Below are positions 6,660 through 52,767 of a stretch of 52,767 nucleotides of DNA, in pieces. The notes below the pieces were generated by a model. It was not told the origin of the DNA. It worked only from the letters and a program-made list of their open reading frames with translations, and did no database searches. How positions within the stretch are numbered: the stretch's first letter is position 1; each line of letters begins with the position of its first letter. The translations under genes and the position numbers were made by a program. Source of the DNA: a virus; the IMG/VR virus record IMGVR_UViG_3300042319_001969, positions 1 to 52,767 of that record; one strand, given 5' to 3'.

Positions 6660-6680
6660 TAGAAAGGAAATATAATCGGT

Positions 6681-9470: not shown

Positions 9471-9471
9471 T

Positions 9472-12876: not shown

Positions 12877-13916
12877 TGGATATAACTTTATATAACAGTT
12901 ATGGTATTATAGATAAAGGTTCTGAAATTGAAATAATTCCAGTTCCTAAAGACGAATCTGACTGGAAAAAAGACCGTAAAAAAACTATAGGTGGTTCTGA
13001 AGCAGCAGCTATATTAGGACTTAACAAGTACTCCTCACCGCTTAAAATCTACCGAGCTAAAACCGAAGACAACGAACATGCACAAGACATGCTTGGTAGA
13101 TTGCCTAGTGTTAAAAAAGGTAGAGAATTAGAAGGATGGATTTTAGACAATAAAGTTAAACCTTTATTCCCAGAATACAACCTTATTAAGCCAGACCATA
13201 TGTTTAAAAACATTAACTATCCTTGGTTAATGGGTAACTTAGATGGTATTGGTACTTTAAAAGATAAAACTTACAACGCTTTAAAAGATACTATTGGTAT
13301 TGAAATAAAGTTAATTACCGAATACGGTGAAGCAGCATGGAACGGTCCTGATTACGAAGGTATTCCATCTTATTATTATGTTCAAGTTCAAACATATATG
13401 GCAATTACAGGTATAGAAGTATTTTATGTTTGTGCTATGTTTGAATCTAATTGGGAATTAAAAACTTATAAAATTCCTAAAGATTTAGATTTTATTCATA
13501 TTAGACTATTGCCTGAAACTAAAGATTTTTACAATAATCATTTGTTAATGAATATTCCTCCTACTCCTACTCCATCTATAGATTCTGATGAAATTACTAA
13601 TATTTTACCAGACATCGAAAACACTCCTACTGTATCTAGCGAAGAACTAAATAAGATGTTAGAAGACTATAACTCATTAGATGGTGTTATTAGAGCTTCT
13701 GAACTACGTTTAAACATTTTGAAGGATAACATCGTAACTAAATATATCGAAGGCGCTAGACCTACAGAAACATCTAAATCTATTATATCTTACTCAAAAG
13801 TTACACGACCAGCGTTTGATTCTGCTAAATTTAAAGAAGAAAACCCTGATTTGTATCAAAAATACATTAATCCATCTACTTATGTTAAATGGAATATTAA
13901 AAAATCTAAAAAGTAA
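12876..13916 (+). CDS. YqaJ-type phage exonuclease/recombinase
   Basis: A 346-residue nuclease of the YqaJ/lambda-exonuclease (PD-(D/E)XK) class. It has KTIGGSEAAAILGLN near residues 36-50, GNLDGIG with the metal-binding Asp, GIEIKL (the ExK element) and YYVQVQTYMAITG, the family's conserved glutamine helix. It would resect DNA ends to feed the Sak4-like annealing ATPase and SSB. ATG 12876 sits 6 bases after GGAGG; the ATG at 12870 touches the RBS and is unlikely. It is the last gene of the plus arm before the terminator. A GCGGTGAG copy (minus strand) is at 13034. Confidence 0.85.
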   Translation: MDITLYNSYGIIDKGSEIEIIPVPKDESDWKKDRKKTIGGSEAAAILGLNKYSSPLKIYRAKTEDNEHAQDMLGRLPSVKKGRELEGWILDNKVKPLFPEYNLIKPDHMFKNINYPWLMGNLDGIGTLKDKTYNALKDTIGIEIKLITEYGEAAWNGPDYEGIPSYYYVQVQTYMAITGIEVFYVCAMFESNWELKTYKIPKDLDFIHIRLLPETKDFYNNHLLMNIPPTPTPSIDSDEITNILPDIENTPTVSSEELNKMLEDYNSLDGVIRASELRLNILKDNIVTKYIEGARPTETSKSIISYSKVTRPAFDSAKFKEENPDLYQKYINPSTYVKWNIKKSKK

Positions 13917-13926
13917 TAAAACAAAG

Positions 13927-13955
13927 ACCCTATGGAGACCCCATAGGGTTTTTTT
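13927..13955. terminator. Bidirectional terminator between convergent arms
   Basis: ACCCTATGG and CCATAGGGT form a 9-bp stem with a 5-base loop, followed by a T-run on the plus strand. Transcription from the left (exonuclease) and from the right (virion arm) meets here. The minus-strand side has a poorer U-tract. Confidence 0.88.
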
Positions 13956-16900: not shown

Positions 16901-19447
16901 TTCAGTAACCTTACTAGGAACAGTTGCTGGATTATAATTACGTTTAACAAATTGTAAAGGACTGACTTGACCAGCAGCAACTTTAGTAGCATCTAATTCG
17001 CTTTTAATTAAAGTTTGAATTTTTTTACCGGTTAAACGGTCAATAACCTCAAGTTCAGGAAAATCTTCTAAAATTTTACGAATAACAGCTTCTTCTTTTT
17101 GAGCAACTGCTAATATTTCTGGAGTTATTTCCACTAATCCACTTCTTATAGCTCTTGTAGCTGCAAAAGGAATACTTTCTAAAAAAGACTTTACTAAAGT
17201 GTTTGGAGGTAAAATATCTCCTATTTCTTTAGAAACAGTTTCAAAAGCATCAGAAGAAAATCCACTTCCTGTCACACTTACAATTTTTTTATTTAAATTA
17301 CTTAAATTGTCTGATAATTCATCTAAAGCAAAAACAATACTTCTAGAAAAATCATCTCCTAAAGATTTACCTTTAGATAAGATTTTTTTAGCATACTTAG
17401 AATTCATTGCTTTAACAAAAGACTCAGTAGAAGCTTTGTAAGCTTCATAAGTATTTAAAATTTCAAAACGTTTACCTGCTTTGCTAACTCTTTTAATTGA
17501 AGGAACTTCTTCTAAAAAAGAAACTTTAATAAAATCGTCTAATCCTTTAACAAAAAAATAAGCTTCATTATATTTAGATATAAAATCAACAGCTTTAGCC
17601 ATTTCAGGGTCTATAATAGATAAATTTTTTATATATTGAGTTCTTGCAACTTTGTTTGTTTTAGGTATTCTATTAAATTCTTTTAGTATTAATTTGTTTT
17701 TGCGTTGGTATTCCCAAGCTTTTTTATAATTAGATATTAAAGAATCTATATCTTTTTCTGCCCAACCAAAAGCTTCAAATATTTTTGTACGAAACTCTTT
17801 AACTCCGACTTTACGTCCTAAAGAAGTTTCTATGTTATTTTTTAAAACAGCAACCCAAGAATCTACATATCTTTTAACAGGAGCATATTGTTTTAAAGGA
17901 TAATATTGACTAGGTCTAACAATAAATCTTTCAGTTCCTCCAGATTTAAGATATGTAAAACTATTTCCTTCAAACTCTTCTAAAATATTTAAAACTTTAT
18001 TTTGAAGAGCTTCTATTTCTGGATAATCTAACACAGAACCATCCCAGTTTTGTTCTACGTATCTATCCCATCCACCTGCTTCTTTAATTTCTTCAAGTAT
18101 AGGACGAATTTCGTCGTCATCTATTTGTTTTAAAGCATCTTCTATTCTATCTGACGTAATAACATTTTGATTTACAAAAGAACCGGAAGGAGCGGTGAGA
18201 GGCATTCCTTGACCTCCTTCAACACCTTTTATTCCCATAACAACGTTACGCCCACCAATGTTTTCAACTTCGGTATATTTACCAATGTTTTTAACTTGGC
18301 TTTCCATTGTAGGCGCACCTAAATCTTGAACTTCTTTAACAGCATCTTCGTATGTTGTAAGTTCAGGAACATTTTTAGCAACAGGTTCAACTACGCTATC
18401 TGTAACCTTAGGTTTAGCTTCTAGTTTAGCAACAGCATCTGCTACTTCTTCAACAGCAGGGTTAACAACATCTTTAGGTTTATAAGATTGTTTAACTTTT
18501 TCAACCCCATTTTCTACAAATTGTGTCAAATTATCTTTAGGAGCAACAGGTGCTGCTGCAACCTTAGGTGCTTTTTTAAGTCCTTCTTGAACTGTTTTAG
18601 CATTTTTAACAACAGGAGTGCCTTGAGGTAATAGTTCTTTACGAATAATAGGCGCTGGGATATCAGGGCCTTTAGGTTTAAAAGTATCTGCAACAGTTTT
18701 AGCTGTAGAATCTTTAGTAGTTACGTTTACAACGTCTTTAGATTTATCCCAATTTAATATTTGTCCGGCTTTACCTAAAAACTTTTTAGCAGCAAAAGTA
18801 GAACCTGGGGCTACTGCATTCCAAGCTAACATAGCCGCTGCATCATCATAGTCAGACATTAATTGTCCAACTTGACCTAAGTTTTTAATAATAGGTTTAG
18901 TAGATTTAGTTCCAATTCTTGCTAAAGTACTACCAAGAATACCTGGGTCAGTAGCTAAATCAATAGCTAATCCACCAAGAGTAGGTAAAAGTCCTTTTAA
19001 ATCTTCATCTGTTATTTGTTTATTAGGGTCTTTACGAGATTGATTGAGTAAATTTTTAATTAACTCTTTACCTTCATAAGGCCTATCTTCTAAAAATATT
19101 TGTTCTATAGGATTATTAAATCCAGTAGGGTCTGTAGCTTCTATTAACGTTCCTAACAAAGCGTCGTCTGCTTTATCTAATGAACGACCAAAATATCCAA
19201 GCACACCCATTGCAGGTCCAAGAATACCTTTACCTTGTTTATTTCCCCAAGCATTAGTTATGCCTTCAATATACCCTGCTGGAATATTTAAAATGCTAGG
19301 TCCGTATTTATTACTTAAATACTCTCTAGCAGCTTTATTAAATATAGGGTCAAACATGTCATCAATATAATACCCGGGTGTAGATGTTACACCTTGAGGT
19401 CCTTCTTGAAGACGTGGAATTATTTCATTAAATTTATTAATAGCCAT
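13994..19447 (-). CDS. Very large virion protein (putative ejection protein), 1817 aa
   Basis: The largest gene, at the distal end of the virion arm. It follows three glycine/alanine-rich or coiled-coil proteins, an order like T7 gp14-15-16 or P22 gp7-20-16, so I infer an internal protein ejected with DNA. The protein is mostly helical, with a Pro/Ala/Lys-rich low-complexity linker around residues 240-360. The C-terminal 450 residues have amphipathic and glycine-rich stretches (FGVLTNPAFPIGN, GLFFNNPINNGIM, STVIPFPTFMVKNLGFWL) that could contact membranes. No peptidase or lysozyme motif was found. The start has no Shine-Dalgarno, and a consensus promoter lies so close that the mRNA may be leaderless. 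Confidence 0.8.
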   Translation of the reverse strand: MAINKFNEIIPRLQEGPQGVTSTPGYYIDDMFDPIFNKAAREYLSNKYGPSILNIPAGYIEGITNAWGNKQGKGILGPAMGVLGYFGRSLDKADDALLGTLIEATDPTGFNNPIEQIFLEDRPYEGKELIKNLLNQSRKDPNKQITDEDLKGLLPTLGGLAIDLATDPGILGSTLARIGTKSTKPIIKNLGQVGQLMSDYDDAAAMLAWNAVAPGSTFAAKKFLGKAGQILNWDKSKDVVNVTTKDSTAKTVADTFKPKGPDIPAPIIRKELLPQGTPVVKNAKTVQEGLKKAPKVAAAPVAPKDNLTQFVENGVEKVKQSYKPKDVVNPAVEEVADAVAKLEAKPKVTDSVVEPVAKNVPELTTYEDAVKEVQDLGAPTMESQVKNIGKYTEVENIGGRNVVMGIKGVEGGQGMPLTAPSGSFVNQNVITSDRIEDALKQIDDDEIRPILEEIKEAGGWDRYVEQNWDGSVLDYPEIEALQNKVLNILEEFEGNSFTYLKSGGTERFIVRPSQYYPLKQYAPVKRYVDSWVAVLKNNIETSLGRKVGVKEFRTKIFEAFGWAEKDIDSLISNYKKAWEYQRKNKLILKEFNRIPKTNKVARTQYIKNLSIIDPEMAKAVDFISKYNEAYFFVKGLDDFIKVSFLEEVPSIKRVSKAGKRFEILNTYEAYKASTESFVKAMNSKYAKKILSKGKSLGDDFSRSIVFALDELSDNLSNLNKKIVSVTGSGFSSDAFETVSKEIGDILPPNTLVKSFLESIPFAATRAIRSGLVEITPEILAVAQKEEAVIRKILEDFPELEVIDRLTGKKIQTLIKSELDATKVAAGQVSPLQFVKRNYNPATVPSKVTEEKLTQAVNEVLTTPTKELPPIVPNATVPDPIKAAQKTLEAGPVEEALNTAIETAMKQQYPTTPVSFAKEVDVYRTTTKKETLFSRLSRAITTSSNVVSKNFSASLDNPKVREIIAKIASIKDIPMVKRFIKSMDEAQPYISKKQTVLVDLIKSNGFKLTVVKDAAERAALRKQLQKLANLVNEAARKMGATGDILLLNKENPDNIVGIFLNESVDGFQNYFTKIAKSQIDGKFIFDEDILWYNNKGAKAFAEEGAEAALLKQTYAEGIDEVRKHVTKLGHKDELDALLENGTPYLHHTAVANDKLSKKMLGSFVYLDKTGKQVVMNVEELGKYSNSMGNYLNLNKKFRSIFTGRSYEGPMSLFQDNELGKLFEDDDLAKIMNGTLSEGVLANKNYQLFLNLFENDNLKVSKMFNSSKELKAALFAVDPITKSVGGNVNQLDVLIPVYKDGTLKSFKRVDKFSDKALEEAFSTGEAVLLPSTLYAPLDRLLKKDAILSNKAYLILNKYFTLPFKFGVLTNPAFPIGNINDAFFKTATELGAKYDRSFVETSIKTTGAMIDVVKLENTMTDIVENFLKTWGKPGELFTPQMLIKDGKARKRFFEYLDAGASSKLITPEQAEQFKSISMLYMLMNRVQDTTVTNFFSKKMLDRLKAFDLEQYGIGQELSKGLDAVDVISKYSVQTNAFEKIIYGNKKTFGLFFNNPINNGIMAASSSIENMMRSAHILAILKEEGIIEEIGKRSPGIKKSLFGDSEKLNIAFQNAANSMNAAHFNYDNITDLMAGISTVIPFPTFMVKNLGFWLNKAIENPQIIDNVISVHENLWDDKNKAAQKDEFLAEAKGRGAVPALGSLFKPTPYGSLFSAFDTLNNPVPNLAYRLNPLTKILTQAALPSEDVKYRPYTTDVYTPNVKRGDPNFSYMRYLLQSANPFERQIQSALRLPSKLEQGNIQPADVLPSVFQPDFSNKKRKK

Positions 19448-24635: not shown

Positions 24636-25973
24636 TTAACTTCCTCCGTTAATTAGTTTTCTAAACGGTGATACTGCTCTATCGGGCAATGCAGCAATAA
24701 GACCTGCTCTACCTGTTCCATACACAATAATACCAGTTCCACTTGCACTTGTTTTTGAATTGGGTAATTGCGACAAAGAGTTATTGTCCGTAGGATATAC
24801 CGAAGCGTTATAAGTAATTGTAGATAAGGAAATACAACTGCCTAAAAAAAAAGTTCCAATAGATGTTACTGTAGAAGGAATAGTTAGTGGTTGGTTAAAA
24901 TTTCCTGCAGAGTTTAAAAAAGTATTTCCAATAGATGTTACTGAAGAAGGAATAGTTAGTGGTTGGTTAAAAACTCTTGAAGCAGATAAAAAATTACTTC
25001 CAATAGATGTTACTGAAGAAGGAATAATTAGTGGCTGATTGAAAGAATCGCCATCTGCTAAAAAAAAATTTGGAAGAGAAGTTATACCCGAAGGAATCGT
25101 TACAGGTTGATTAAAATTTTTCATCTGCCCAAGAAAACTTTGCCCAATGGTTGTTAGGCTTGAGGGAAGAGTTAGTGGTTGGTTGAATGATGCTAAGCTA
25201 AATAAAAAACCAGACCCAACGGCTGTTAGGCTTGAGGGAAGAGTTAGTGGCTGATTGAAAGAACTTGCATTACTTAAAAAACTTTGCCCAATAGATGTTA
25301 TATTAGAAGGGATAATTAGTGGTTGATTGAAAGAACTTGTATTACTTAAAAAACTTGCTCCAATTATTGTTGAACTTGTCGGTGTTGGTAATGTTAATGG
25401 TTGGTTAAACAAAGTGCAATTAGACAAAACAGCACTAACGTTTAACGATGTTGCTCTTCCAATTAAAACATTTAAGACTTGATACGCATATATATTATTA
25501 TATAAAGTTGTGGTGGTTGAAAAATTGGGCAAAGTCGTGCTTACGATAAACCGATAGTTTGTTCCTGTGGTCGCTGTGCCTACAGTTCCTTCAGTTCCAT
25601 CTTTGGTAATGTTCAAATAAGCAAACGTTAGGTTTTCTACCCCTGTTAAAGTTGTTCCATAATGTGCATGAAGTCCTCTATAAGTAATACTTTGACTATC
25701 TTTGACACAAGTAATGTCAAAAAACTTCAACGAGTTTGTAGCACTTGTAACGATAAAATTCACGGTAACGTTTCGTGTTCCGTTATTGATTATGGTTGCT
25801 CTGCCAGTTAAACCTGTAATCGTAATGTTATGCGTTAAGGATTTATATTCATAATTGTTTTCGTAAGATATATTATTATCTTTTGCAGTGATTGGAACTG
25901 TTGCCCCTGTAAAGATACCTTGTGTTTGAATAGAAGGTAAACCTCCACCTACTACGCTATTAATTATTGGCAT
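24636..25973 (-). CDS. Repeat-bearing tail fibre / receptor-binding protein, 445 aa
   Basis: The N-terminal 190 residues are beta-rich and Thr/Asn-rich. From about residue 188 come eight repeats of about 24 residues with consensus FNQPLTIPSSVTSIGxxFL, a pattern close to the BspA/DUF285-type leucine-rich repeats seen on cell surfaces of Gram-positives and mycoplasmas. The C-terminal 60 residues cap the repeats. Location behind two fibre proteins makes a host-binding tip likely. Repeat number could vary between strains. The gene starts 3 bases after the 182-aa fibre stop. Confidence 0.78.
   Translation of the reverse strand: MPIINSVVGGGLPSIQTQGIFTGATVPITAKDNNISYENNYEYKSLTHNITITGLTGRATIINNGTRNVTVNFIVTSATNSLKFFDITCVKDSQSITYRGLHAHYGTTLTGVENLTFAYLNITKDGTEGTVGTATTGTNYRFIVSTTLPNFSTTTTLYNNIYAYQVLNVLIGRATSLNVSAVLSNCTLFNQPLTLPTPTSSTIIGASFLSNTSSFNQPLIIPSNITSIGQSFLSNASSFNQPLTLPSSLTAVGSGFLFSLASFNQPLTLPSSLTTIGQSFLGQMKNFNQPVTIPSGITSLPNFFLADGDSFNQPLIIPSSVTSIGSNFLSASRVFNQPLTIPSSVTSIGNTFLNSAGNFNQPLTIPSTVTSIGTFFLGSCISLSTITYNASVYPTDNNSLSQLPNSKTSASGTGIIVYGTGRAGLIAALPDRAVSPFRKLINGGS
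24835..25409 (-). repeat. Eight tandem 72-bp coding repeats
   Basis: Imperfect tandem repeats of 72 bp encode the 24-residue FNQPL units. The first unit is 26 residues long. Units share blocks such as ggttggttaaa or ggctgattgaaa on the plus strand and differ at scattered sites, indicating old duplications with exchange between units. Confidence 0.85.
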
Positions 25974-28324: not shown

Positions 28325-29077
28325 TTATGGTTTTATATCGTACCAGAAGTCGCCTGTAACTTGACCTATAGGTTCGTTTTGAGCTACTTCAATCCATAAG
28401 CCGCCTTCTGCTCTATAGTTTATTTCATATACGAATATTTTACCGCTACCATTGTTTTTAAGTTCTGTAATAGTAGCTAACCATAATGCAGCATTAGGCC
28501 TGTCTGGAATAGTAGTTGAGTACTTAGCAGCTTCTGTAGCTGATAAATACAATCTACTACCTTCCATTATACCACTTATACTAGCACTGTCAACAATATT
28601 TGCAAAATTTGCAACATCTACGTTTCCAAATACTAATACTGGAGTAAAAGCATTTTTAATTGACGAATATCGTAAAACTCCAACCATCTTAGATTTAGTC
28701 GGGTCAGACGCTATAGCAGTAGTAAATAGTTTATGACTACCTTGAGCTCCTGCCCAACTTACTGGAGCTCCGGCTGGAAGGTCTAAATTGCTATCGTTTT
28801 TACCAATATCTCCTAATTTATTGTAATAATCAATTTGGTCGCTAAGAGTTTTTAAGTTTTCAATTACAGCAACCATTACTTCTGTTATAGTAAGTCCTTG
28901 GCTAAGACTACGCTTTACTTGTTCAAATAGCTGGTTCCAGTCATTTATAGTAACGCTTTTGCTAGCTAAAGTCTTAAATAAAGGAATATACCAAGTAGGA
29001 AGGTTGTTAAAACCTTCTATATTGTTTTCAAAATAGTTAATGATGTCATCTAATGTTGCATTAACTGGGATTGGCAT
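28325..29077 (-). CDS. Putative tail structural protein, 250 aa
   Basis: N-terminal 100 residues helical (DDIINYFENNIEGFN, EQVKRSLSQGLTITEVMVAV), C-terminal 150 residues beta-rich with aromatic clusters (GGLWIEVAQNEPIG, GDFWYDIKP). No known family. Its ATG overlaps the nozzle-protein stop by one base and it follows AGGAGA. A position after the nozzle and before the fibres suggests a baseplate or fibre-connector role. Confidence 0.7.
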   Translation of the reverse strand: MPIPVNATLDDIINYFENNIEGFNNLPTWYIPLFKTLASKSVTINDWNQLFEQVKRSLSQGLTITEVMVAVIENLKTLSDQIDYYNKLGDIGKNDSNLDLPAGAPVSWAGAQGSHKLFTTAIASDPTKSKMVGVLRYSSIKNAFTPVLVFGNVDVANFANIVDSASISGIMEGSRLYLSATEAAKYSTTIPDRPNAALWLATITELKNNGSGKIFVYEINYRAEGGLWIEVAQNEPIGQVTGDFWYDIKP

Positions 29078-32000
29078 TATTCTTCTCCTGGTAATGTTCT
29101 ATATTTATAATATACCACATAAATTTTAAATTTAGTAACGCTGTTTCCTGTAATAACGTGTCTAAGAGTTTTACCAAAACCATGGTGTCTAATACGTAAT
29201 TCTTTTAAGGTATTAATAATCTGTGAGTTATTTGTGTCAAATCCAGTATTTAAAACAGCTAAATCATCTAGACTATCATTCCAAAACGGAGAATCAGTTT
29301 CTACAGCTTTGTGAGCTATTTGTTTATGTCCATCTGTGTATACGTCTAATGTAACAGGTATTACTTCTTTAGAACTCTTTAAACCAAATGTAATTCTAGT
29401 TTCAACAAAGTTCTTTTCATACCCCATGTCATCTGACTTTTCACCGCTATCAATTTCAAACGAAATAGGAGTCACGGCGGTGAGTTCCCCGATTAATGGA
29501 TATTCTACATTTAAAACGTCACCGTATCCGATAATATCCACAAAAGCATCTGGGAACTTTTTATTAAAGTAGTATTGTTTACCATTAATATCTGTAATAA
29601 TAATGTTTTGAATATTATCAATAAACACTTGTTTAACTCTAATTGTGTATTCCATTAAAGTAAACACTCTAGTCCCATAATCATATTTTATTAATAATGT
29701 TTTGTCAGAAAGTGTCAAAAATATACCGTAATATGTTTCAGTAGTAAATCCAATAGTATCTAAAGGTTCTAAGTTTAATAATTCTCCTACAGGTTTGGAC
29801 AACTCAGATATGCTCAATATAGAATCTACTGATGAATTTGGATTTGGAGATAATGAAAATATCTTGCTACCATTTTTAAATAGTAACCCATTTAAAATAG
29901 GCATTAAAGTATTTCTATCAACTTCTGAAACCCCTGTAAAGGTATTAACAGCTTTATTTGTAAAACCATTGTTTATTTTAGTAATTAAATAAATAGCATT
30001 ATTAGTTGCTGCAATTAAATAGTCTCTCCAAGGAACCAAGCTGTTAACTTTGTTATCTTGACTAGCATCTAAGTCTAATACATTAGTTAAAGGAAATTCA
30101 AATGAATCTGTTTTAGAAACTAAAATGTTATTTTTAAATCCGGAGTTTCCAAAAGCGTATAGTGCTTTTTTATAATTTAATAATCCTAAAGCTTTACTTG
30201 GTTTTTCAATAACCACATTATCTACAACTACTTCGTTTGATAAAAGACTTGCAGTTTCTAAAAAACTTACAGTTTTTATGTTATTAATTTGATTTCTATT
30301 TATATAAGCTATATGACTACCTTTAAATAATAAAGAATGAACGCTAGTTCCTACCACATATTCGTATTCATTACCACTTCTATGGTAATTTACAGAAGAA
30401 GCAGGATAGCTTGTAAAATAAAATACTTTTTTAGCATCTTCGTAAACAAATTCAGATTTATTTTTAACAGTGTAGCAACTGTCATAAAAACTTTTAACAT
30501 TAGGTCTTTCTACAGTTAATTGAGTTGACACTGCAAAATTACCTACTTCTTTAACTTTAAGTACCGTATCTACAGTAATAAATTCATCTGTTAAAGAAGT
30601 ACTTCCTTCTCTTCCTAATAGACTATAATAATGCCCATAATTAACATCAGTTATTCTAGAGTTTCTAGATTCAATATCTGTACTTACAGATAAAAGATTT
30701 AACCAAGTAACATATGGTTGCTCAATCATAGTTGTAATAGATTTTAATGTTAACCCTGAGTTTTGCATTACGTTATTGTAAACATCAGTGTTATAAACTT
30801 TAGAAATGTTTACTTCTTGTTTAGGAACACTAATAACATTTAAATTATTTTTGTTAAGTAAAGCATAGTTTGGTTTAGTAAATACTGCTAAGTTTGAAAA
30901 TATATTATCAATTGTGCTTAAAGTATGAAGAGAAGAAACATATTGTCCAGAAATAGTATCTGCTATTTTTGTAGCAATAACAGGACTGCTTACTATTTCA
31001 TAGCTTTGATAAATAGAGTTGTTAAAACTAATATTAAAACCATCTACTTCTAAATTAGCATTAAAAGCATTGTGGTCAATTTCATTTATATTTGATAAAG
31101 TAAATCCACTTAAGCTAGAATTAATATAATCTTGTTTTTTAATACTTTTTGAGCTTAGCCCATAAATTTTATATTGGTCTTCTTTAATCACATCTAATGT
31201 AGGATTAATTTCTGTAAAGTCTCCATATAAAGTACTATTACCATTTATACCGGTATTTAATTTAGACGGTTCATTTGTAATTTCAGACCCTGAAGTTTTA
31301 GTTTTAATATTCCAAGGAAACACTGCCCAGGGTAATTTTTTCCAATTAGTAACGTAAAGGTTTTTAATTTTATGAGGAATATTAGGAAATTCTACTGTTA
31401 CAGTTTCAATACTTGAATCTAATAAAGTTGTAGAAGTTCCACTTTTTCTTAAATATTCAAATCTAATGTTTGGGCTTGGAGCTCCTGGGTATCCTGCTTG
31501 ATATTCTATTTCAGCACGAATAAACCAATTATTTCCTTCTAAAGTATATTGTGTAGTTTTATCTTCTTGTAAAACACTAATTTCTTGCAAATTGTTTTTA
31601 GTTTTTCTAATAGCTTCATTTTGTGCTACGCTTAAAAGAGGTAAAGTAGTTAAACCAGTATCTAAAAATACTTTAAATCTTTCTTCTAAATCGCTATTGC
31701 TTATAGGATTATAAGAAGAAAAACTATAAGGTCTAAGGTCATTAGTATTGATACCTAAATCGCTACTTCTATTAGTTGCAGTAGAAGGTGTAGTTTTTAA
31801 ATCTTGAATGTAAGTTTTATTTTCTTTACCTTCAATAATTTCATAACTAGGTAAAGCATATACCACAAATCTACGTGTTTTGTTATCCGATTTTACAAAT
31901 AAAACATCTGGTCTATTTAAAACATTATCTGCATCTGAAAATAATTCAAATGGAGTAACATTAATGCTTTTTAATTCTGATGTTACATCTACTTCATCTT

Positions 32001-32955
32001 TTCTAACTTTTAAATTAATTAAATAGTTAGCAAATTTAGTTTTAAATTCAGGACAGGTGTTATAATTAACGCCGTCAATAGTTTCTTCCCAAGAACAATA
32101 TATTTTAGTTTTAGGGTACTTTTTAATGTTAACAAATGCTTTTAAATATATTCCAGTACCTTCTGGAACTGATGCGGCAATAGTATATCTTGGGTTTGCT
32201 TTACTTCTAAGCAAAGTTTCTATATTTAAATTGTTTAATTGAGTAGCAATTACTTTTTTGGTAACGTGGTCGTATAATACATATTGCAAAATACCTAACA
32301 CGTCAAATGTTTGAGAGCTGTAATTATCTCTAACGTCTTGAAACACATCATTATAAAAATTAGGATTAAAAATAATACCTTCGCCTTCAGATGTTTTATT
32401 TAAGTTAATTTCTGTAGGTATGAGAGCTTCTAATACATGTTGATTATCTACAATTGTATGTTTAACAAATCTACTTCCAATATATCCATCTGGAAGTTTT
32501 ACTTCAATGTTATTAATAATAGTAGATGTGGAAAAATTAGAATATGTAACAGTATCATTAATTTTGTAATTATATGCGCTAGATAAATTAGCATTATAAA
32601 CTAAAATGTTTTCTTTACCATAAACATCTTTGTATTTAATGGGTACTAAAGTTCCAGTGCTATTATAAATACCATTACTAGTAATGTATAAATCATTTAA
32701 ACGATTTCCGTCAAAAGAATACACTACTTTATAGAATGTTCCAGTAACTCCTGCAGGTTTGTTTTTATAAAGTAAAATTGGGTCTCTTAAGATTAAAGAA
32801 CGGTCATCATCTACATCAAAGTTTTTAACAGTAAAAACACCTGACTTATCAGTAGGGCTATCAATACGTCTAATTCCTCTGACAGCAGAATAGCTAGAGG
32901 TTCTAGCAGAATCTATACTTCCAGAGTTGCCATTACGTCTTCTTTTTAAAGCCAT
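29077..32955 (-). CDS. Large tail protein, T7 gp12 nozzle / stabiliser-like, 1292 aa
   Basis: N-terminus KSGVFTVKNFDVDDDRSLILRDP and later segments (KALYAFGNSGF, SLVPWRDYLIAATNNAIYLIT) resemble the beta-propeller-bearing tail tubular/nozzle proteins of podoviruses, though this one is longer than T7 gp12 (794 aa). It is directly after the adaptor gene, which is the expected order. I chose the ATG at 32955 (MALKRRR); an upstream TTG would add three residues. Its start overlaps the adaptor's stop region. One GCGGTGAG copy is at 29477. Confidence 0.7.
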   Translation of the reverse strand: MALKRRRNGNSGSIDSARTSSYSAVRGIRRIDSPTDKSGVFTVKNFDVDDDRSLILRDPILLYKNKPAGVTGTFYKVVYSFDGNRLNDLYITSNGIYNSTGTLVPIKYKDVYGKENILVYNANLSSAYNYKINDTVTYSNFSTSTIINNIEVKLPDGYIGSRFVKHTIVDNQHVLEALIPTEINLNKTSEGEGIIFNPNFYNDVFQDVRDNYSSQTFDVLGILQYVLYDHVTKKVIATQLNNLNIETLLRSKANPRYTIAASVPEGTGIYLKAFVNIKKYPKTKIYCSWEETIDGVNYNTCPEFKTKFANYLINLKVRKDEVDVTSELKSINVTPFELFSDADNVLNRPDVLFVKSDNKTRRFVVYALPSYEIIEGKENKTYIQDLKTTPSTATNRSSDLGINTNDLRPYSFSSYNPISNSDLEERFKVFLDTGLTTLPLLSVAQNEAIRKTKNNLQEISVLQEDKTTQYTLEGNNWFIRAEIEYQAGYPGAPSPNIRFEYLRKSGTSTTLLDSSIETVTVEFPNIPHKIKNLYVTNWKKLPWAVFPWNIKTKTSGSEITNEPSKLNTGINGNSTLYGDFTEINPTLDVIKEDQYKIYGLSSKSIKKQDYINSSLSGFTLSNINEIDHNAFNANLEVDGFNISFNNSIYQSYEIVSSPVIATKIADTISGQYVSSLHTLSTIDNIFSNLAVFTKPNYALLNKNNLNVISVPKQEVNISKVYNTDVYNNVMQNSGLTLKSITTMIEQPYVTWLNLLSVSTDIESRNSRITDVNYGHYYSLLGREGSTSLTDEFITVDTVLKVKEVGNFAVSTQLTVERPNVKSFYDSCYTVKNKSEFVYEDAKKVFYFTSYPASSVNYHRSGNEYEYVVGTSVHSLLFKGSHIAYINRNQINNIKTVSFLETASLLSNEVVVDNVVIEKPSKALGLLNYKKALYAFGNSGFKNNILVSKTDSFEFPLTNVLDLDASQDNKVNSLVPWRDYLIAATNNAIYLITKINNGFTNKAVNTFTGVSEVDRNTLMPILNGLLFKNGSKIFSLSPNPNSSVDSILSISELSKPVGELLNLEPLDTIGFTTETYYGIFLTLSDKTLLIKYDYGTRVFTLMEYTIRVKQVFIDNIQNIIITDINGKQYYFNKKFPDAFVDIIGYGDVLNVEYPLIGELTAVTPISFEIDSGEKSDDMGYEKNFVETRITFGLKSSKEVIPVTLDVYTDGHKQIAHKAVETDSPFWNDSLDDLAVLNTGFDTNNSQIINTLKELRIRHHGFGKTLRHVITGNSVTKFKIYVVYYKYRTLPGEE

Positions 32956-32957
32956 AA

Positions 32958-33740
32958 TTACCAACCTTTAGTATAAAAGTATGTTGCTTCTAAACCATCA
33001 GGAATTCTCATGAATCCTTTAATGGCTCTAGTAGGTACTATAATTTGCGCAAATCTTGGGTCGTTAATACTTGCTTCTACATCTTCTGCGTACACTTCAT
33101 CTCCAGCTACTTCGTTAAGTCTGGCAAATGAAGGAACATCGTAGTTAGATTTTAATTGATTAAATCCTTGAATAAATTCATCTTGAAATGCAGTTGCGTT
33201 ACCACCATCTCTAGTACTTAGTGCTGCACAGACGTATGGCACTAAAAATAAAGTAACCCAATCAATAGGTAAATATAAACCAAGGTTAAATTCTAATGGG
33301 TTGTGATTACGGTCTGGGAACCAAAACGGTAATCCATTTACTTTCCATGCTTGAAAGTATTTAGACTTTTGAGTTGTGTAATCAATGTAAACTCCATATA
33401 GGTCATCAAAAGCAGTATAAACAGGAGCACCTGCTACTTTTAACATATACTTGTTTGTAGAAATGTCAAAATAATATACATTAGTATCACCTGCTGATGT
33501 AGTAGGTAATGCTACTGGGGAAGTGGGTTCTGAAGTTAATAAAACAACGTTTGGGATATTTAATTGCGAATTAGCATAATCTGTTACTAGTTTAGTAATA
33601 GGTTTAATACCAATGTGCATTAACGTGTTAATTTCTGACACTGATTGGTCAAAGTACACGTCCATATCTTCAAACGCAAATCCTGGAAAATTTAATCTTT
33701 TATTAATTTTAGAAACTACTTCGTCAACAGTAATTCTCAT
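32958..33740 (-). CDS. Head-to-tail adaptor (T7 gp11-like), 260 aa
   Basis: The N-terminus (DEVVSKINKRLNFPGFAFEDMDVYFDQSVSEINTLMHIG in part) has the helical pattern of phage connector/adaptor proteins, followed by a beta-rich middle and a final helix. Its position between capsid genes and the nozzle-like gene supports this. RBS AGAGG. It is preceded by a strong hairpin that may reduce readthrough from the capsid genes. Confidence 0.68.
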   Translation of the reverse strand: MRITVDEVVSKINKRLNFPGFAFEDMDVYFDQSVSEINTLMHIGIKPITKLVTDYANSQLNIPNVVLLTSEPTSPVALPTTSAGDTNVYYFDISTNKYMLKVAGAPVYTAFDDLYGVYIDYTTQKSKYFQAWKVNGLPFWFPDRNHNPLEFNLGLYLPIDWVTLFLVPYVCAALSTRDGGNATAFQDEFIQGFNQLKSNYDVPSFARLNEVAGDEVYAEDVEASINDPRFAQIIVPTRAIKGFMRIPDGLEATYFYTKGW

Positions 33741-46053: not shown

Positions 46054-46425
46054 ATGAATAAAGGTAGTCGTGAATTAGCCGTGACGGTTTTGTCTTTGAC
46101 GAGTCCAGCGAGGATTGCTCAAATTGCTAAAGAAAAAGCATTGAATCCTCAAGAAGTCTATGTGAGAGCAACTTGCGAATACGCAGGTAAAACTTTCACA
46201 GTTTCTAATAAGCTTCGCTTTCTAAGTCAAGATGGTTATACCAAATTGATGAATGCTAAGCAAAGCAAAGAAACTATTAATATTGTGATTTCGCCTGCGG
46301 CAGATAATATTAATTATTATTTTTATTTAGAAAATACCGCAGTAGATGTTGCTTCGCTATTCAAAGAACCAGTTAAGCAACCAGACATTCGCGTCAAAGT
46401 CGAAGACTTATATAAGAATTTGTAA
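46054..46425 (+). CDS. Hypothetical protein, 123 aa
   Basis: RBS AGGAGG. Alpha/beta protein: N-terminal helix (SPARIAQIAKEKALNPQEVYVRA), beta segments (TFTVSNKLRFLSQDGY, TINIVISPAADNINYYFYL), basic C-terminus. No family recognised. It lies just before the protease operon but a terminator separates them. Confidence 0.7.
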   Translation: MNKGSRELAVTVLSLTSPARIAQIAKEKALNPQEVYVRATCEYAGKTFTVSNKLRFLSQDGYTKLMNAKQSKETINIVISPAADNINYYFYLENTAVDVASLFKEPVKQPDIRVKVEDLYKNL

Positions 46426-46440: not shown

Positions 46441-46480
46441 AAAAGGCTTTAGGTTTTCCGTAACTTAAAGCCTTTTTTTT
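46441..46480 (+). terminator. Intrinsic terminator before the protease operon
   Basis: AAAGGCTTTA and TAAAGCCTTT form a 10-bp stem with a 14-base loop and an eight-base T-run. AAGGAGG of the protease gene follows, so readthrough or an unseen promoter must feed that operon. Confidence 0.88.
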
Positions 46481-46500: not shown

Positions 46501-48276
46501 ATGAATGTGGAATTCAAAGCAATGGTATTAAACGAAGCTGGAGATAGCTATGCTATGGATAGCGATTTTAATTTTACTAAAGATAGTACTAAGGGTATAG
46601 TGTTCTCTTTAAACACAGATTCAAGCGTTGAAGATTTCATTAATTATATTATGAGTATGCTTAATGAAAAAGAAGACACTTACACAGTTGAAATTTTTTC
46701 AGATGTTAATCCTAACTCTTTTGGAAAATTGACTTTTAATAAATCTATGCTTTCTGCCTCATTTGATGTTAAAGCTGCCACAGATGAAAGAGCTTTTGGT
46801 AAATTTATAGCAGAAAATATAGCACAAGCTATTAAAGATATCCCAACCACTAGTATTCTTTCAGGTATTTCAGAACTTATGGAGGCTGCTGCTAAAGGCA
46901 GTTCAAGAACCCCTAGTTCAAAAGACCCAAGCTTAAGCGAAGATGAGCAATTCATAGAAAAAATTAAAGACTTTACTAAAACAGATATTGTAAAGCCAAC
47001 AGAAACTATTGTAGATTATATAGCAGATGATGATTTACTTGATGAACTAAAAGAAATTATTGACTTTCAAAACAATTCAGATAAATACTCTAAGTTAGGT
47101 ATTGAAATACCTAAAGGCGTATTATTCAAAGGTCCTCCAGGTACTGGTAAGACCTATGCTGCTAAATGTATTGCCGGTAGTAGTAATAGTTATTTTATGG
47201 TAACTACTGCTAGTGCCTTACAAGGTCAATATATTGGTAGTGGCGCCGAGAATATTCGTAAAATATTTACAGGCGCTAGAGAGCTAATTAAAAAGACAAA
47301 GAAAGGTGTAATGATATTCATAGATGAGCTTGACTCATTCGGTAGTCGCACAAGCCATTCGGGAAGCGCAAGCGGTGAGGAAGACCGAACCCTTAATCAA
47401 TTGCTTGCCGAGTTATCTGGATTTAATCCAACCGATAAGATAATGGTGTTAGCTGCGACAAACTTTGTAGAGCGTTTAGATGAAGCGCTTTTAAGAAGTG
47501 GCCGTTTAGGTCGCCAAATTACTATTGATTATCCTACAGAAATTCAAAGACGCCATTTAGTAGACTATTATTTTAAGAAATTTAAGTTACACGACACAGG
47601 TACAGATATTATTTCAGACTTAGTTGACGGCTTATCCCCTGCGGATATAAAAGCCGTTTCTAATGAGTCTGCTATATTAGCAGTCCGTAACTCTCGTGAA
47701 GAAATTATGCTTGACGATATTAATGAAGCGATTAACAAAACTATTACTAAGAATGTTAAACGAAAAGACATTAAGAAAGACAAGTATTTAGTTTCAGCAC
47801 ACGAAATGGGACATGTCTTAGCAGAAGCTTTGTATCTAAAGACTTGCCCATTAAAAGTCACAAATGATACTTATGGAGACTCAGGAGGATTTACTCAAAC
47901 AACAAATCACTTAAGTGGCATTACAAAACAAGAAAGGTATTCTGCCGAAGTTAAAATGTTAATGGCAGGCCGTGCCGCAGAGCAAGTGATTTGTGGATAT
48001 ATAACTAACGGAGCAAGTAGTGACCTTCAAAGAGCTAATAAACTTGTAAAAGCCTATTTTCAGGTTTATAACTTTGAGCCCTATGATGTGTCAAAACTTG
48101 ACCAGTTAGTACAAGACAAAATTCATAGTCTTTATACGGAAACCGTAAAAGATTTTGAATTACACAAAGACTTGCTTAAGTCTTTGACAGACGAGTTGAT
48201 GACTAAGTCTACTATTTATCGTTCATTGTTAGCTATTCTATTATCTCCAGTGTTAACTAAAGGAGGAATTTTATGA
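46501..48276 (+). CDS. FtsH-like AAA+ metalloprotease (soluble form)
   Basis: A 591-residue protein. After an unknown ~165-residue N-terminal domain come Walker A GPPGTGKT (211-218), a pore-loop-like ALQGQYIGSG, Walker B IFIDELDS (near 274) and arginine-finger region LLRSGRLGRQITIDYP. The M41 peptidase part has HEMGH (434-438) and the third zinc ligand D508 in NGASSDLQRA. The fold is that of FtsH, but I see no transmembrane helix at the N-terminus, so it would be cytosolic. It probably unfolds and degrades phage or host proteins. It overlaps the next gene by 4 bases (ATGA). One GCGGTGAG copy is at 47372. Confidence 0.88.
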   Translation: MNVEFKAMVLNEAGDSYAMDSDFNFTKDSTKGIVFSLNTDSSVEDFINYIMSMLNEKEDTYTVEIFSDVNPNSFGKLTFNKSMLSASFDVKAATDERAFGKFIAENIAQAIKDIPTTSILSGISELMEAAAKGSSRTPSSKDPSLSEDEQFIEKIKDFTKTDIVKPTETIVDYIADDDLLDELKEIIDFQNNSDKYSKLGIEIPKGVLFKGPPGTGKTYAAKCIAGSSNSYFMVTTASALQGQYIGSGAENIRKIFTGARELIKKTKKGVMIFIDELDSFGSRTSHSGSASGEEDRTLNQLLAELSGFNPTDKIMVLAATNFVERLDEALLRSGRLGRQITIDYPTEIQRRHLVDYYFKKFKLHDTGTDIISDLVDGLSPADIKAVSNESAILAVRNSREEIMLDDINEAINKTITKNVKRKDIKKDKYLVSAHEMGHVLAEALYLKTCPLKVTNDTYGDSGGFTQTTNHLSGITKQERYSAEVKMLMAGRAAEQVICGYITNGASSDLQRANKLVKAYFQVYNFEPYDVSKLDQLVQDKIHSLYTETVKDFELHKDLLKSLTDELMTKSTIYRSLLAILLSPVLTKGGIL

Positions 48277-50288
48277 AGTTAACTTTATCAATCCCATATT
48301 CAGACATTAAAGCAAACTTAGTAGATTCTTATTCGCCAGACTTTCCATTGCTAATAGTTAAAGATTTAGACCCAGATGTTATTATACATACAGCTAAAGA
48401 AATTAATAATCCTAATTCATTAATGAACTTTATACCTAAAGTATTAATGACTTTTAAAGCATTAGCAGCAGTTAAAAAACCTTTAGGTTCAATTAACTAT
48501 GCTAAGTATGAAACTGGTGAATATATCACAAATCTTAATTTGTTTAGAACTAAACAAACTTCATTTTTATTTGACCCTTTTACAAAGCTAGGTATTAATC
48601 TTCACAAGTTATTACTTGGTATTGATTCTAAAGAAACTAAACTTTATTTAGATACTGCGCTTATAGCACATTTAAGTAGATTAAGTCAAGAGATTCAAAA
48701 TCAAATGACTTTGTATTTAATTTCATTAATTCATTTGTTTATTAGTCTTAATGAATTACAAATAGATAAAAATTTATTTAATTTATCTAAACTTTCATCT
48801 TCAGAATTAAGAATTAAACATTTGACATGGGCAACTTTGCCTAGTCTTATTAAGACTTTTAATGCCGATGTTAACATTGAATTAGTAGAAACTCAAACTT
48901 CTAAAATTACTTACTTAGAAGTTTTTCAAGACACTTATTCTTCTAATATACCTATCGCAGTTACAGGTCAAGCCCCAAGTAGCTATATGATTATCAAAAG
49001 TCCTAGTAATGAGTACTCTTTATTACTTAAAACCCCAAGTAAAGATTATTTTAATATCAACTTTGATACCTCAGAGATTCAAACTACTTTGAATCTTACT
49101 TATTTAGACTTTGATTCAGACTCTCATCCTATTGGATTTGCGGGCAGTATGCCTAATAACTCAAACCCAGTAGTAATTATTTACAATAAAACTATGGATT
49201 TATCTACATCCCAAAAATCTTTAATTTTAGAATCAGTTTCAGAAATTGAAAATGCTAAAGTTAAAGAAAAAGTAGAATCTTTTTTATCTAAATGCTCAAC
49301 TCTTAGAGAAATTGTAGAAGTTACTAACTTAGAAGATTTCTTTAAAGAGTTAAATAAAGATTATTTTGATACTAGTACAACTAGTCATGTATCTAATGAA
49401 TCTATTAAACTTCAATATACATCAGACGCATATGCCCAACAACTATATGCGCTTAATAAAAAAGTTATTGACAAATTAGGTCCAGTAGACTTACAAGACC
49501 TTTCTAATATTGTTCCAAGCGTTATTAAAGGTGAAACTTACAGTGCTATTTTTGTAGGTGAATCCGGTACCGGTAAATCTACCACTGCTAAGCAAATCTT
49601 TTACCAAGCAGGAATTCCTTTTGAAATTATTAACGCCAGTATTAATATCGAAGAATCAGATTTTATTGGCACAATGGTAGCTAATAAAAATCGTAAATCA
49701 GAACTAGACCCAATGTTTGTTTGGAAAGATGGTATCTTAACCAGAGCAATTAGAAATGGTTATGGAACTATTATTGAAGAACTTAACTTTGGTAGAGCAG
49801 GCGTTTTAGGTAAATTAAATTCATTGTTAGACGATTCTCGTCAAATTGAATTAGGCGATGGAACTATTCTTCAAGCACATCCTAACTTTAGATTGTTTGC
49901 TACAGGCAACATTGGCGAAGAAGGTACTCAGCGTTTAAATCGTGCTTTAATTAACCGTTTTCAACATGCTAAAAAGTTTAAACATTTAAACAAACAAGAA
50001 ACTATTAATTTAATAGCTGTTAAAACAAAGTATAAAGACTTAGATAAGCTAGAAAAGATTTATGTAGTGTACGACGCAGTTCGCAAGTACGCTAAAGAAA
50101 ATCAATTAAAACTAAGTATTTCTATTCGTCAGCTTATAAACATATTTATGGCACCTAAAGTCTATAAGAATGCGCACGACGCAGTTATAAACTTTATGAT
50201 TAATCAAGCATTTTTAGAAGAAACAGAACATCAAGAACACTTTGTAGAAACAGTACTATCCGTATTTGATTTAAAATTTAAACTATAA
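48273..50288 (+). CDS. MoxR/CobS-like AAA+ ATPase
   Basis: A 671-residue protein. The N-terminal ~400 residues are unknown and helix-rich. The C-terminal AAA+ domain has Walker A GESGTGKST (429-437), Walker B TIIEELN (near 500), an inserted RQIELGDGTIL beta-hairpin and sensor 1 FATGN (near 544). This is the AAA_5/MoxR layout shared with CobS, CbbQ and midasin. Such ATPases act with a VWA partner to remodel proteins or insert metal; that partner is the next gene. The start lies within the protease end, indicating tight co-expression. Confidence 0.85.
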   Translation: MKLTLSIPYSDIKANLVDSYSPDFPLLIVKDLDPDVIIHTAKEINNPNSLMNFIPKVLMTFKALAAVKKPLGSINYAKYETGEYITNLNLFRTKQTSFLFDPFTKLGINLHKLLLGIDSKETKLYLDTALIAHLSRLSQEIQNQMTLYLISLIHLFISLNELQIDKNLFNLSKLSSSELRIKHLTWATLPSLIKTFNADVNIELVETQTSKITYLEVFQDTYSSNIPIAVTGQAPSSYMIIKSPSNEYSLLLKTPSKDYFNINFDTSEIQTTLNLTYLDFDSDSHPIGFAGSMPNNSNPVVIIYNKTMDLSTSQKSLILESVSEIENAKVKEKVESFLSKCSTLREIVEVTNLEDFFKELNKDYFDTSTTSHVSNESIKLQYTSDAYAQQLYALNKKVIDKLGPVDLQDLSNIVPSVIKGETYSAIFVGESGTGKSTTAKQIFYQAGIPFEIINASINIEESDFIGTMVANKNRKSELDPMFVWKDGILTRAIRNGYGTIIEELNFGRAGVLGKLNSLLDDSRQIELGDGTILQAHPNFRLFATGNIGEEGTQRLNRALINRFQHAKKFKHLNKQETINLIAVKTKYKDLDKLEKIYVVYDAVRKYAKENQLKLSISIRQLINIFMAPKVYKNAHDAVINFMINQAFLEETEHQEHFVETVLSVFDLKFKL

Positions 50289-50297
50289 GGAGAATAT

Positions 50298-52643
50298 ATG
50301 TATACCCCATATGAATTACAAAAAATAGCAAACAAATGTTCTATTTTAGCTAATCCTTATGATTATCGTTTAAACAATAAAATTGTTTTAAAAGACATGA
50401 GTAGACCAGAAGATTATTCTTTAAGTTTAAATAACTATACTCATTTTATAAATAAATTATTATTTTCAATAGCTTCAGCAGTTTTAAAAGATGAATCTCA
50501 TAGTGTATTTAGTTCTGCTTTTGAAGACAAAATGTTTGCTTCAGATATCAAAAGATATGATTATGTAATTAATCATTTATTTTTAAAAGCTCCAGCAGAT
50601 AATCCTTTTTCAGTTAAAGGCGTTTTAACTAATGAAGCTCTAGAGTCAGACACCGAAAAAATTTCTCAAATTAATGGTAATGCTTTTCTATTTAAAATAT
50701 TTAATAGTTTTGGAATTAATTTAGATTACTATTTAAAACTTAAAAATATTGACTCTTCTTATCAAAAAACTTCTAACTTTTTCTTAAATAATGCTCATGT
50801 TTTTAATGCTGCTATTAAAAATATGAAACAAGAAGAACTTGAAGCATTATTTACATTTTCATTACATTTAAAAACTTCTATAGTAGAAGAACTCAGTTAT
50901 TTGTTTACAAACTTAAGTTTAGATTATCACAGTTTAAAACAAAAACAAAATGTTTACAATTTCTTAGAAGATTTATCAAATAAAAAACCAGACTTATCTT
51001 TAAAACTTTCATTTTACGACGCTTTGTTAAGACAAAATGAATTTTTAGAAGTATTACCAGACCAAATATATACCGATTGTTTAGATTCTAGATATGGTAA
51101 CAATTTAGCAACTAAACAACATAGATTAAATCGTATTGTTCAAGAGTATCCTTTAACTTCTTTTATTATCTATTACACTAGTAAATTAGAACAATATTTA
51201 GTTTACTACATTGAAATTTTACACATTGTTACACAAAAAATGTCAAAAAGTCAATCTCAATTTATCCTAGATTTATTTAGAGTAAATGGAGAAAACAAGT
51301 TTTTATCAGAAGCAGTATATAATCCTTTGACTAACATCTTTAATCCTAAAGTGGAAGAAATTATTGCTATAAAAGACAACGCTTTAAGATTCGAAGAAAT
51401 TCGTAACTATTTAAACTCAGAAATTGTTAAAGATTTAATTAAAAACACTTGTAAAAATTTAACAAAAATTTACAAAGACTTTGATACTAAAATTCTTAAC
51501 GACAAACTTTTACAAAGCTTTGACGCTTTTATGTTTCCAAACTTTGTAGCTAAATTTGTTATGGCATCTAATGAATATGCTATATTTAAAGATGCTGTAA
51601 AAACTTCAATTATTTTAATTGAATATGCTAAAAAAAATAAAATTAATTTAACAGTAGATTACACAGTTTTAAACGATGATGAAAAAGAACTTCTTGACAG
51701 TGCTGAGTCATCAGAAACTTTTTCAGACCCGTTTGCTAATTTTAATTATGAAGAAGATTTTAATGATACAGAATCTTTAAAACCTAAATCAGACTCTAAA
51801 GATAAACCAATAAGTCTTTCTACAGAGTTAGACAATACTATTTCTAACTTTAAAGAAAAGGGACATGACTTCACTTTAAAAGAAGTTAAAGCTTCAGACA
51901 ACTCTAAGAATCTTTACTTAGCCGTGTCTCAAAAAATTAAATTACTTAATAGTTTGTTAATTAAACAAATTAGAGACATCAAAACTTACAACCAAGGAAG
52001 TAAGCTTTCAGGTTTATTCAGTGGTAAAATTGATGCTAAAAATCTATATAAGTATGAAACTTCAGACAACTTGTTTTATAACAATAAGTATGAAATTAAA
52101 GAAATGGATTTAGCTTTTGGTATCGTATTAGACGCTAGTGGCAGTATGCAAGGAGACAAAATTACAGACGGTAAAGTATCTATGGTTTTATTACATGAAA
52201 CTTTAAGAGCTTTAAATATTAACCATTCTATTATTGACCACACAGCTAGAGGTAACCACACTTGTATTGTTAGAAAATATCATGACTTTAAAGAATCTAA
52301 AAACTATGATATTACTAAGTCTTATGCTATAATGGACATTGTAGCTAGAGAAGGCAATAACGACGCAGGAGCCTTGTATTACATGGAGAAAGCGTTGCTT
52401 AAAACTCAAAACAAAGACAAAATTTGTATTATATTTTCAGACGGCCAGCCAACAGAGTGTTCAGAACAAGAGTTAAAAGACCAAGTTAAAAGTATGGAAA
52501 AAAAAGGAATTAAGGTTATTGGTATTGGTATTAATCTTCCAGAGATTGCCGAATATTACACAGACTATGCAAATGGTAAAAACCTTAATGAAATGGTAAA
52601 AATTATTACAGACATCCTTAAACAATATGTATTGAATAAATAA
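50298..52643 (+). CDS. CobT-like VWA-domain partner protein
   Basis: A 781-residue protein, RBS AAGGAGA. Helical N-terminal ~465 residues unknown; then an acidic, low-complexity linker (residues about 465-515, ETFSDPFANFNYEEDFND in part), like the acidic linker of CobT. The C-terminal VWA fold has MIDAS DASGS (612-616), GNNDAGAL near 697, and SDGQPTE near 714. Order and spacing match the CobS-CobT and CbbQ-CbbO arrangement. The family partner relation is known; the substrate here is not. A second allele of the last 214 codons is at the window start. Confidence 0.85.
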   Translation: MYTPYELQKIANKCSILANPYDYRLNNKIVLKDMSRPEDYSLSLNNYTHFINKLLFSIASAVLKDESHSVFSSAFEDKMFASDIKRYDYVINHLFLKAPADNPFSVKGVLTNEALESDTEKISQINGNAFLFKIFNSFGINLDYYLKLKNIDSSYQKTSNFFLNNAHVFNAAIKNMKQEELEALFTFSLHLKTSIVEELSYLFTNLSLDYHSLKQKQNVYNFLEDLSNKKPDLSLKLSFYDALLRQNEFLEVLPDQIYTDCLDSRYGNNLATKQHRLNRIVQEYPLTSFIIYYTSKLEQYLVYYIEILHIVTQKMSKSQSQFILDLFRVNGENKFLSEAVYNPLTNIFNPKVEEIIAIKDNALRFEEIRNYLNSEIVKDLIKNTCKNLTKIYKDFDTKILNDKLLQSFDAFMFPNFVAKFVMASNEYAIFKDAVKTSIILIEYAKKNKINLTVDYTVLNDDEKELLDSAESSETFSDPFANFNYEEDFNDTESLKPKSDSKDKPISLSTELDNTISNFKEKGHDFTLKEVKASDNSKNLYLAVSQKIKLLNSLLIKQIRDIKTYNQGSKLSGLFSGKIDAKNLYKYETSDNLFYNNKYEIKEMDLAFGIVLDASGSMQGDKITDGKVSMVLLHETLRALNINHSIIDHTARGNHTCIVRKYHDFKESKNYDITKSYAIMDIVAREGNNDAGALYYMEKALLKTQNKDKICIIFSDGQPTECSEQELKDQVKSMEKKGIKVIGIGINLPEIAEYYTDYANGKNLNEMVKIITDILKQYVLNK

Positions 52644-52767
52644 GCCGTTATACGCTATTCGCTTTATAAACGGCTTAGGAGGTAGAATATGAATTCTGCA
52701 GAAAAGTATAGGCTTTATGAAATCTTATTCTATTTATATTTTAATAGACAAGATGATACTACAATCA
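51997..52767. repeat. Right copy of imperfect end overlap
   Basis: Counterpart of bases 1-771, 98.3% identical (13 substitutions, no gaps). It includes the VWA C-terminus, the intercistronic hairpin (52642-52676) and the first 26 codons of the following gene. Confidence 0.95.
52689..52767 (+). CDS. Hypothetical protein, N-terminal fragment (cut by window end)
   Basis: Same locus as the 144-aa gene at 693-1127, read again at the junction: AGGAGG, ATG and 26 codons, with Ser in place of Pro at residue 3. It stops only because the window ends. Confidence 0.85.
   Translation, partial: MNSAEKYRLYEILFYLYFNRQDDTTI

Follow-up and report, generated by a model that had tools for sequence, protein, structure and literature searches.

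A conserved phage gene trio linking a soluble FtsH-like protease to a CobS/MoxR-type ATPase and a CobT-like VWA protein

Pairs of MoxR-type ATPases and vWA proteins have been described as chaperones that remodel complexes, and in bacteria ternary MoxR-vWA-FtsH systems, in which an FtsH-type AAA protein is the third partner, have been described as conflict systems (Kaur et al., 2020; PMC7159879). According to the sections of that paper available to us, the FtsH-type proteins of the ternary systems have a duplicated AAA domain of which the first copy is inactive, effectors are linked to these systems and the metal-ion-dependent adhesion site (MIDAS) is degenerate in some cases. In jumbo phages a MoxR-vWA pair has been reported in which the vWA protein carries a fused metallopeptidase, and a role in virion assembly has been proposed for it (Iyer et al., 2021; PMC7824862), while the cobST genes of tailed viruses have been proposed to assist cobalamin synthesis (PMC8651126). 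In this study, we analysed three adjacent genes of the IMG/VR virus record IMGVR_UViG_3300042319_001969 (52,767 nt; this whole stretch is called the window, and all coordinates refer to it), which encode an FtsH-like protease, a CobS/MoxR-type AAA+ ATPase and a CobT-like VWA protein. As MoxR-vWA pairs, the ternary systems (with no M41 reported in them) and phage 'CobST' are already known, this trio is a variant on them.

With the systems of Kaur et al. (2020) the trio shares the combination of a MoxR-type ATPase, a vWA protein and an FtsH-type AAA gene, and with the jumbo-phage pair the coupling of MoxR-vWA to a metallopeptidase in phages. It differs from the former, as far as the sections available describe them, in that it is found in a phage, its MIDAS is intact and its protease has a single active-type AAA domain joined to a peptidase M41 domain, which is unreported there; the two AAA domains of the ternary proteins are thus not found, the N-terminal 165 residues of the phage protein containing none. 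It differs from the jumbo-phage pair in that the peptidase is not fused to the vWA protein but is a separate AAA+ protease, predicted to be ATP-dependent. In the openly licensed literature we found no description of an operon in which a soluble M41 protease is the fixed partner of a CobS-VWA pair.

The three genes lie on the + strand at positions 46501-48276, 48273-50288 and 50298-52643 and encode proteins of 591, 671 and 781 amino acids, respectively. The protease and CobS-like genes overlap by 4 nt, a gap of 9 nt separates the CobS-like and VWA genes, and a strong Shine-Dalgarno sequence precedes each of them. The reading frames and coordinates agree exactly with a preliminary description of this DNA, which had noted three coupled genes. 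Relatives were located through the terminase and by alignment-based scans (a scan with the single protease sequence gave none). Six were obtained (G005, G006, L028, L033, L037 and L041), one of which, L041, is a phage-size contig binned in a Clostridia metagenome-assembled genome (MAG), and their proteases are 44-50% identical to that of the window. The trio is therefore kept in seven independent genomes, with order and contiguity complete in five and interrupted by contig ends in two: the 53.4-kb G005 is broken inside the CobS-like gene, which leaves the protease and VWA genes at opposite ends, and G006 stops inside the same gene. In all six relatives the protease gene stands immediately before the CobS-like gene, and the VWA gene follows wherever the contig reaches; the intergenic gaps measured range from -34 to +13 nt, and nothing is inserted within the trio. 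The preliminary description had named linkage in relatives as one test of its proposal, and this linkage is what we observe. The genes 5' of the protease, on the other hand, differ in spacing and content among the relatives, and a profile search detected none of the trio in Paenibacillus phage API480, an isolated relative whose terminase and polymerase are 37% and 31% identical, respectively. The phages that bear the trio form a group that probably infects Clostridia, and this conservation indicates that the trio is real and probably functional.

The protease is made up of an N-terminal domain (about residues 1-165; 46501-46995), an AAA domain (about 166-417) and an M41 domain (about 424-591). 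Pfam recognizes AAA (7.7e-32, 110.9 bits) and Peptidase_M41 (3.6e-16, 60 bits against a cut-off of 29.9), the AAA-M41 part aligns to solved FtsH chains as one continuous match, and the protein is 33-37% identical to the FtsH proteins compared. Together with a match to the NCBIfam model FtsH_fam, these features and the conserved residues identify it by sequence as an M41 AAA+ protease, that is, a member of the FtsH family in the wide sense. As in other members of the FtsH/M41 family, AAA is followed by M41, with an HExGH motif and a distal Asp ligand. The HEMGH zinc motif (residues 434-438; 47800-47814) and the third ligand D508 (48022-48024) had been correctly noted in the preliminary description, and the zinc ligands H434, H438 and D508 and the catalytic E435 are invariant in all seven proteases, as are Walker A K217/T218, Walker B D275/E276, N321, R332/R335 and the pore-loop residue Y244. 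Conservation of the catalytic residues over so large a divergence points to a conserved function, for which the protease activity itself is predicted.

What sets the protein apart from the FtsH/M41 family is the lack of transmembrane helices, the unrecognized N-terminal domain and the fixed CobS-like and VWA partner genes. Within the first 220 amino acids, the 19-residue Kyte-Doolittle mean peaks at 0.67 in the protein of the window and does not exceed 1.39 in the relatives, whereas the three anchored controls (a Clostridia FtsH and the FtsH proteins of the jumbo phages PA5oct and MaAM05) reach 2.7-3.5. By this measure, an N-terminal hydrophobic segment is absent from all seven proteases, as the preliminary description had proposed for the window in calling the protease unanchored. 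AlphaFold models the N-terminal domain as alpha/beta at low confidence (predicted local distance difference test, pLDDT, mostly 32-63), and we do not interpret its fold; the model as a whole (66.5) supports the FtsH core only, of which the best structural match is FtsH. Matches in BFVD are mainly to giant-virus FtsH/AAA proteins. PADLOC IetA, which is the ATPase in an anti-phage pair of an ATPase and a protease, is matched as well by the AAA part and about 60 residues before it (1.1e-39), with a score far below that for FtsH. The PA5oct and MaAM05 proteins are likewise phage-borne AAA-M41 proteases; however, they are anchored (Kyte-Doolittle maxima of 2.7-3.2) and host-like, with no annotated CobS or VWA genes in their 6-kb flanks.

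The second protein was assigned as a CobS/MoxR-type AAA+ ATPase from Pfam AAA_5 (residues 426-563; 4.4e-18, 66 bits against a cut-off of 22), PHROG 249, matches to solved structures, which include CobS and midasin, and motif alignment; the approximately 400 residues before this domain are unrecognized. It has the Walker A motif GESGTGKS, and the Walker A Lys/Ser, the sensor Asn and the Arg finger are kept in five of five proteins. Its Walker B motif (residues 500-503) is IIEE, with Glu for the usual Asp, while DE is found at this place in most of the phage CobS proteins used for comparison. Because of this motif, the preliminary claim that all three catalytic sets look intact is slightly too strong. 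In the Clostridia-type pairs described below, Walker B reads EIQE or similar.

The third protein consists of an unrecognized N-terminal part, an acidic linker at about residues 441-520 and a C-terminal VWA domain, and was assigned on its conservation and on Pfam VWA (3.5e-8) and CobT_C (1.6e-7), both over the cut-off. The MIDAS motifs are DxSGS (D612) and SDG (D715), and D612, S614, S616 and D715 are invariant in the six VWA proteins compared, in line with the intact MIDAS described earlier. An adjacent AAA_5 ATPase of the CobS/MoxR type and a VWA protein with MIDAS make a MoxR-vWA pair in the wide sense. The N-terminal regions do not match anchored FtsH or metal chelatase subunits, a match that the preliminary description had counted as evidence against its own proposal.

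CobS-type AAA+ proteins paired with a C-terminal VWA domain and located by replication genes or a single-stranded DNA-binding protein (SSB) gene also occur in the phages ICP2, nickie and T5S1, in a Rhizobium phage and in Clostridia. The last were found by searching for distant VWA relatives in 391 genomes of the class of the L041 MAG, which gave five CobS-VWA pairs; the faecal contig MT835792 brings the number of loci to six. In these phages and elements HExxH is usually present in the N-terminal part of the VWA protein, and a neighbouring FtsH gene was not found, whereas the trio has no HExxH in its VWA protein, unrelated N-terminal regions and a separate FtsH-like protease. In the six Clostridia-type pairs the motif (HELGH, HECGH, HEEGH or HEVGH) lies in the VWA N-terminus of every protein, a conserved NxxEDxxIE-like motif follows it in all six, and no FtsH-like gene was present in the roughly 14-15 kb read per locus. 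Within the trio clade, none of six VWA proteins has HExxH and every genome has a separate HExGH protease (Fisher p = 0.002 for the contrast in HExxH, a value that ignores relatedness; the trio clade amounts to essentially one evolutionary event). HExxH is also present in the VWA protein of three of the phages, ICP2, T5S1 and the Rhizobium phage. The four HExxH-negative, distant Clostridia matches left out of the count are two single chelatase-like proteins that match both profiles (L066 and L067), a short contig (L069) and L068, in which the CobS-like gene is separate and distant and the VWA protein (377 amino acids) lacks HExxH, and which was set aside as a more remote type. Since the VWA proteins of relatives outside the clade have HExxH fused to them, the pair is repeatedly accompanied by a metalloprotease-type part. 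This suggests that such an activity belongs with the pair and can be provided either in cis or in trans. In the trio clade, the protease seems to have shifted from in cis, fused to the VWA protein, to in trans, and this would suggest that the trio is one functional unit.

The setting of the pair is also similar elsewhere. Each of the six Clostridia-type loci has an SSB gene 5' of the pair (by Pfam SSB, with L061 just under the cut-off and the other five over it), and primase, helicase or polymerase genes lie near cobT/cobS in ICP2, nickie, T5S1 and the Rhizobium phage. As these genes adjoin the pairs, we infer that replication or recombination proteins are their working surface. For AAA matches in Acidianus tailed spindle virus and a Vibrio phage there were no annotated partner genes nearby. 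The Clostridia-type loci (L061-L065 and L002) share a block of SSB, a gene for 250-300 amino acids, CobS-like and VWA with the HExxH zincin motif; the 250-300-amino-acid product has an N-terminal hydrophobic stretch in several of them, and a DNA methylase gene follows the block in L061 and L064.

In the window itself, positions 1-771 are a direct repeat of 51997-52767 with 13 mismatches in 771 bases, and contig G001 reads from the CobS-like and VWA genes straight into window position 1 and onward at 100% identity. The record is therefore a terminally redundant, circularly closed and essentially complete phage genome of ~52.0 kb that was opened inside the VWA gene, the 3' end of which is duplicated by this redundancy at 3-647 (+ strand). 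It follows that the trio continues directly into replication genes and that the operon is not the end of a fragment. Downstream of the trio on the circular map, the + strand run at 693-13916 begins with a conserved gene (693-1127) and small genes, followed by an exonuclease, a helicase, a RecA/UvsX-like ATPase, an SSB-like protein (DUF669, with the tail DDELPF), primase, DNA polymerase I and a RecE-like exonuclease. Pattern matching found no strong terminator-like site on the + strand from the trio to 13923, the next one being 13923-13953 (pattern match only), and the trio and the replication genes could therefore share one transcript. The terminase, portal, major head and tail genes, in contrast, are on the - strand at 13994-41687. 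Virion proteins, which had been suggested as one target in the preliminary description, are thus disfavoured, because the trio belongs to the strand and run of the replication genes and lies opposite the structural genes.

Based on these data, we propose that the trio is one functional unit, an ATP-driven remodel-and-degrade machine of the phage replication phase, a reading to which we give an even chance. In this model, a peptide or complex would be bound by the CobT-like VWA protein, by way of its MIDAS and its N-terminal domain, and then pulled or rearranged by the CobS-type AAA+ ring at the expense of ATP. A soluble FtsH-like hexamer would unfold and cut the protein that is released, and would thus provide in trans the function that in related systems the HExxH domain fused to the VWA protein appears to have. 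Rather than virion proteins, the likely substrates would be host or phage proteins that take part in replication or recombination. ATPase and protease activity, the physical association of the proteins, the direction of substrate flow and the identity of the substrates are here what we infer from the genes. A broader proposal, which we offer only tentatively, is that the CobS-VWA pairs found in phages and mobile elements are not cobalamin genes but generally serve as the unfolding half of dedicated proteolytic machines of the replication phase, mostly with a zincin fused to the VWA protein, and that this clade swapped in a captured, de-anchored FtsH-type protease in trans.

Several observations weigh against the proposal of a single remodel-and-degrade machine. 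The Walker B motif is hhEE throughout the trio clade (IIEE in nearly all, VGEE in L037), and with Asp replaced by Glu clade-wide, ATP hydrolysis by the CobS-like protein may be altered. The Pfam match of the protease covers only the first half of the M41 model, its NCBIfam FtsH_fam score of 288.6 bits is below the equivalog cut-off of 600, for which reason it is not an ordinary FtsH, its AlphaFold model is of moderate quality, and that of the VWA protein (mean pLDDT 37.7) is uninformative and was not used. Phage nickie has a VWA protein without HExxH and no M41 was found in its record, so that a protease is not universal with the CobS-VWA pair, and if L068 is counted as a pair the contrast in HExxH falls to six of seven. 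Finally, in a profile comparison of the clade with the Clostridia-type pairs only the AAA and VWA parts align; the N-terminal parts therefore look exchanged and not merely mutated, and the change from in cis to in trans is a pattern and not a traced event.

Some phages have a CobS-VWA pair without M41, and jumbo phages carry FtsH without the pair nearby. This would fit a co-transcribed trio of separate enzymes, in which the CobS-VWA chaperone works alone and a cytosolic FtsH-like protease, for example, removes host regulators or defence proteins. However, the three genes are strictly adjacent and keep their order in the relatives, and this, like the distribution of HExxH between cis and trans, argues against such independence, which we consider unlikely.

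That bacterial MoxR-vWA-FtsH ternary systems have been described as conflict systems and that the AAA part of the protease matches IetA could also mean that the trio acts in superinfection exclusion or counter-defence. As described there, the bacterial FtsH has two AAA domains and linked effectors, whereas the trio has one AAA domain with M41; no effector or ubiquitin-like (Ubl) conjugation gene was recognized beside it, though many small genes there lack an assignment. The IetA score is far exceeded by that of FtsH, and clade-wide conservation by replication genes is unlike an accessory defence gene, all of which makes this role decidedly improbable. A virion-assembly chaperone with a maturation protease, as proposed for jumbo-phage MoxR-vWA pairs (PMC7824862) and for a two-tailed archaeal virus, has these published proposals in its favour, but in view of the strand and position of the trio relative to the structural genes it seems very unlikely. 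A role as cobalamin auxiliary metabolic genes, in which viral CobST would help host CobN to insert cobalt, has been published for tailed viruses (PMC8651126) and agrees with the porphyrin biosynthesis label of PHROG 249, but we reject this cobaltochelatase reading, which has hardly any likelihood left, because the ATPase scores 43.1 bits against a cut-off of 558.55 for the CobS equivalog TIGR01650, the VWA protein has no match to the CobT equivalog TIGR01651 at E 0.01 and resembles CobT only in the Pfam VWA domain CobT_C, and the genome record has no CobN (though a host CobN is possible), to which the extra 400-residue N-terminal part, the fixed FtsH-like partner and the replication context are added.

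Some other features of the genome should be mentioned. A strong terminator-like hairpin of 15 pairs with a T-run at 46441-46476 (+ strand; consensus match only) ends 24 nt 5' of the protease start codon and may mark a boundary of the replication transcript or serve as its attenuator. Just upstream, a gene for 123 amino acids (46054-46425, + strand) with the motifs NPQEVFVR and SNKLRF is present in five of the six relatives, the sixth, L041, not being covered as its locus begins only 125 bp before its protease gene. It has no family match, the window gene having none in Pfam, and its assignment as an SSB relative, with an hhalign probability of ~0.1%, is unsupported. Within the structural region, the open reading frame at 24636-25973 has BspA-type leucine-rich repeats and 72-bp tandem repeats and is possibly a host-binding protein, and the very large open reading frames at 13994-19447 (1817 amino acids) and 29077-32964 (1295 amino acids) have no Pfam match. 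The 13 mismatches between the terminal repeat copies suggest that two strain variants were apparently merged during assembly.

Phage 'cobS/cobT' genes are widespread and are usually taken as vitamin B12 genes. That a soluble FtsH-type protease always accompanies the pair in this clade, and that in relatives HExxH is fused to the VWA protein, argues for a proteolytic or remodelling role, which can be tested. If this is true, the combination of an FtsH-type protease freed of its anchor with an unfoldase dedicated to it would be a compact new design of AAA+ protease.

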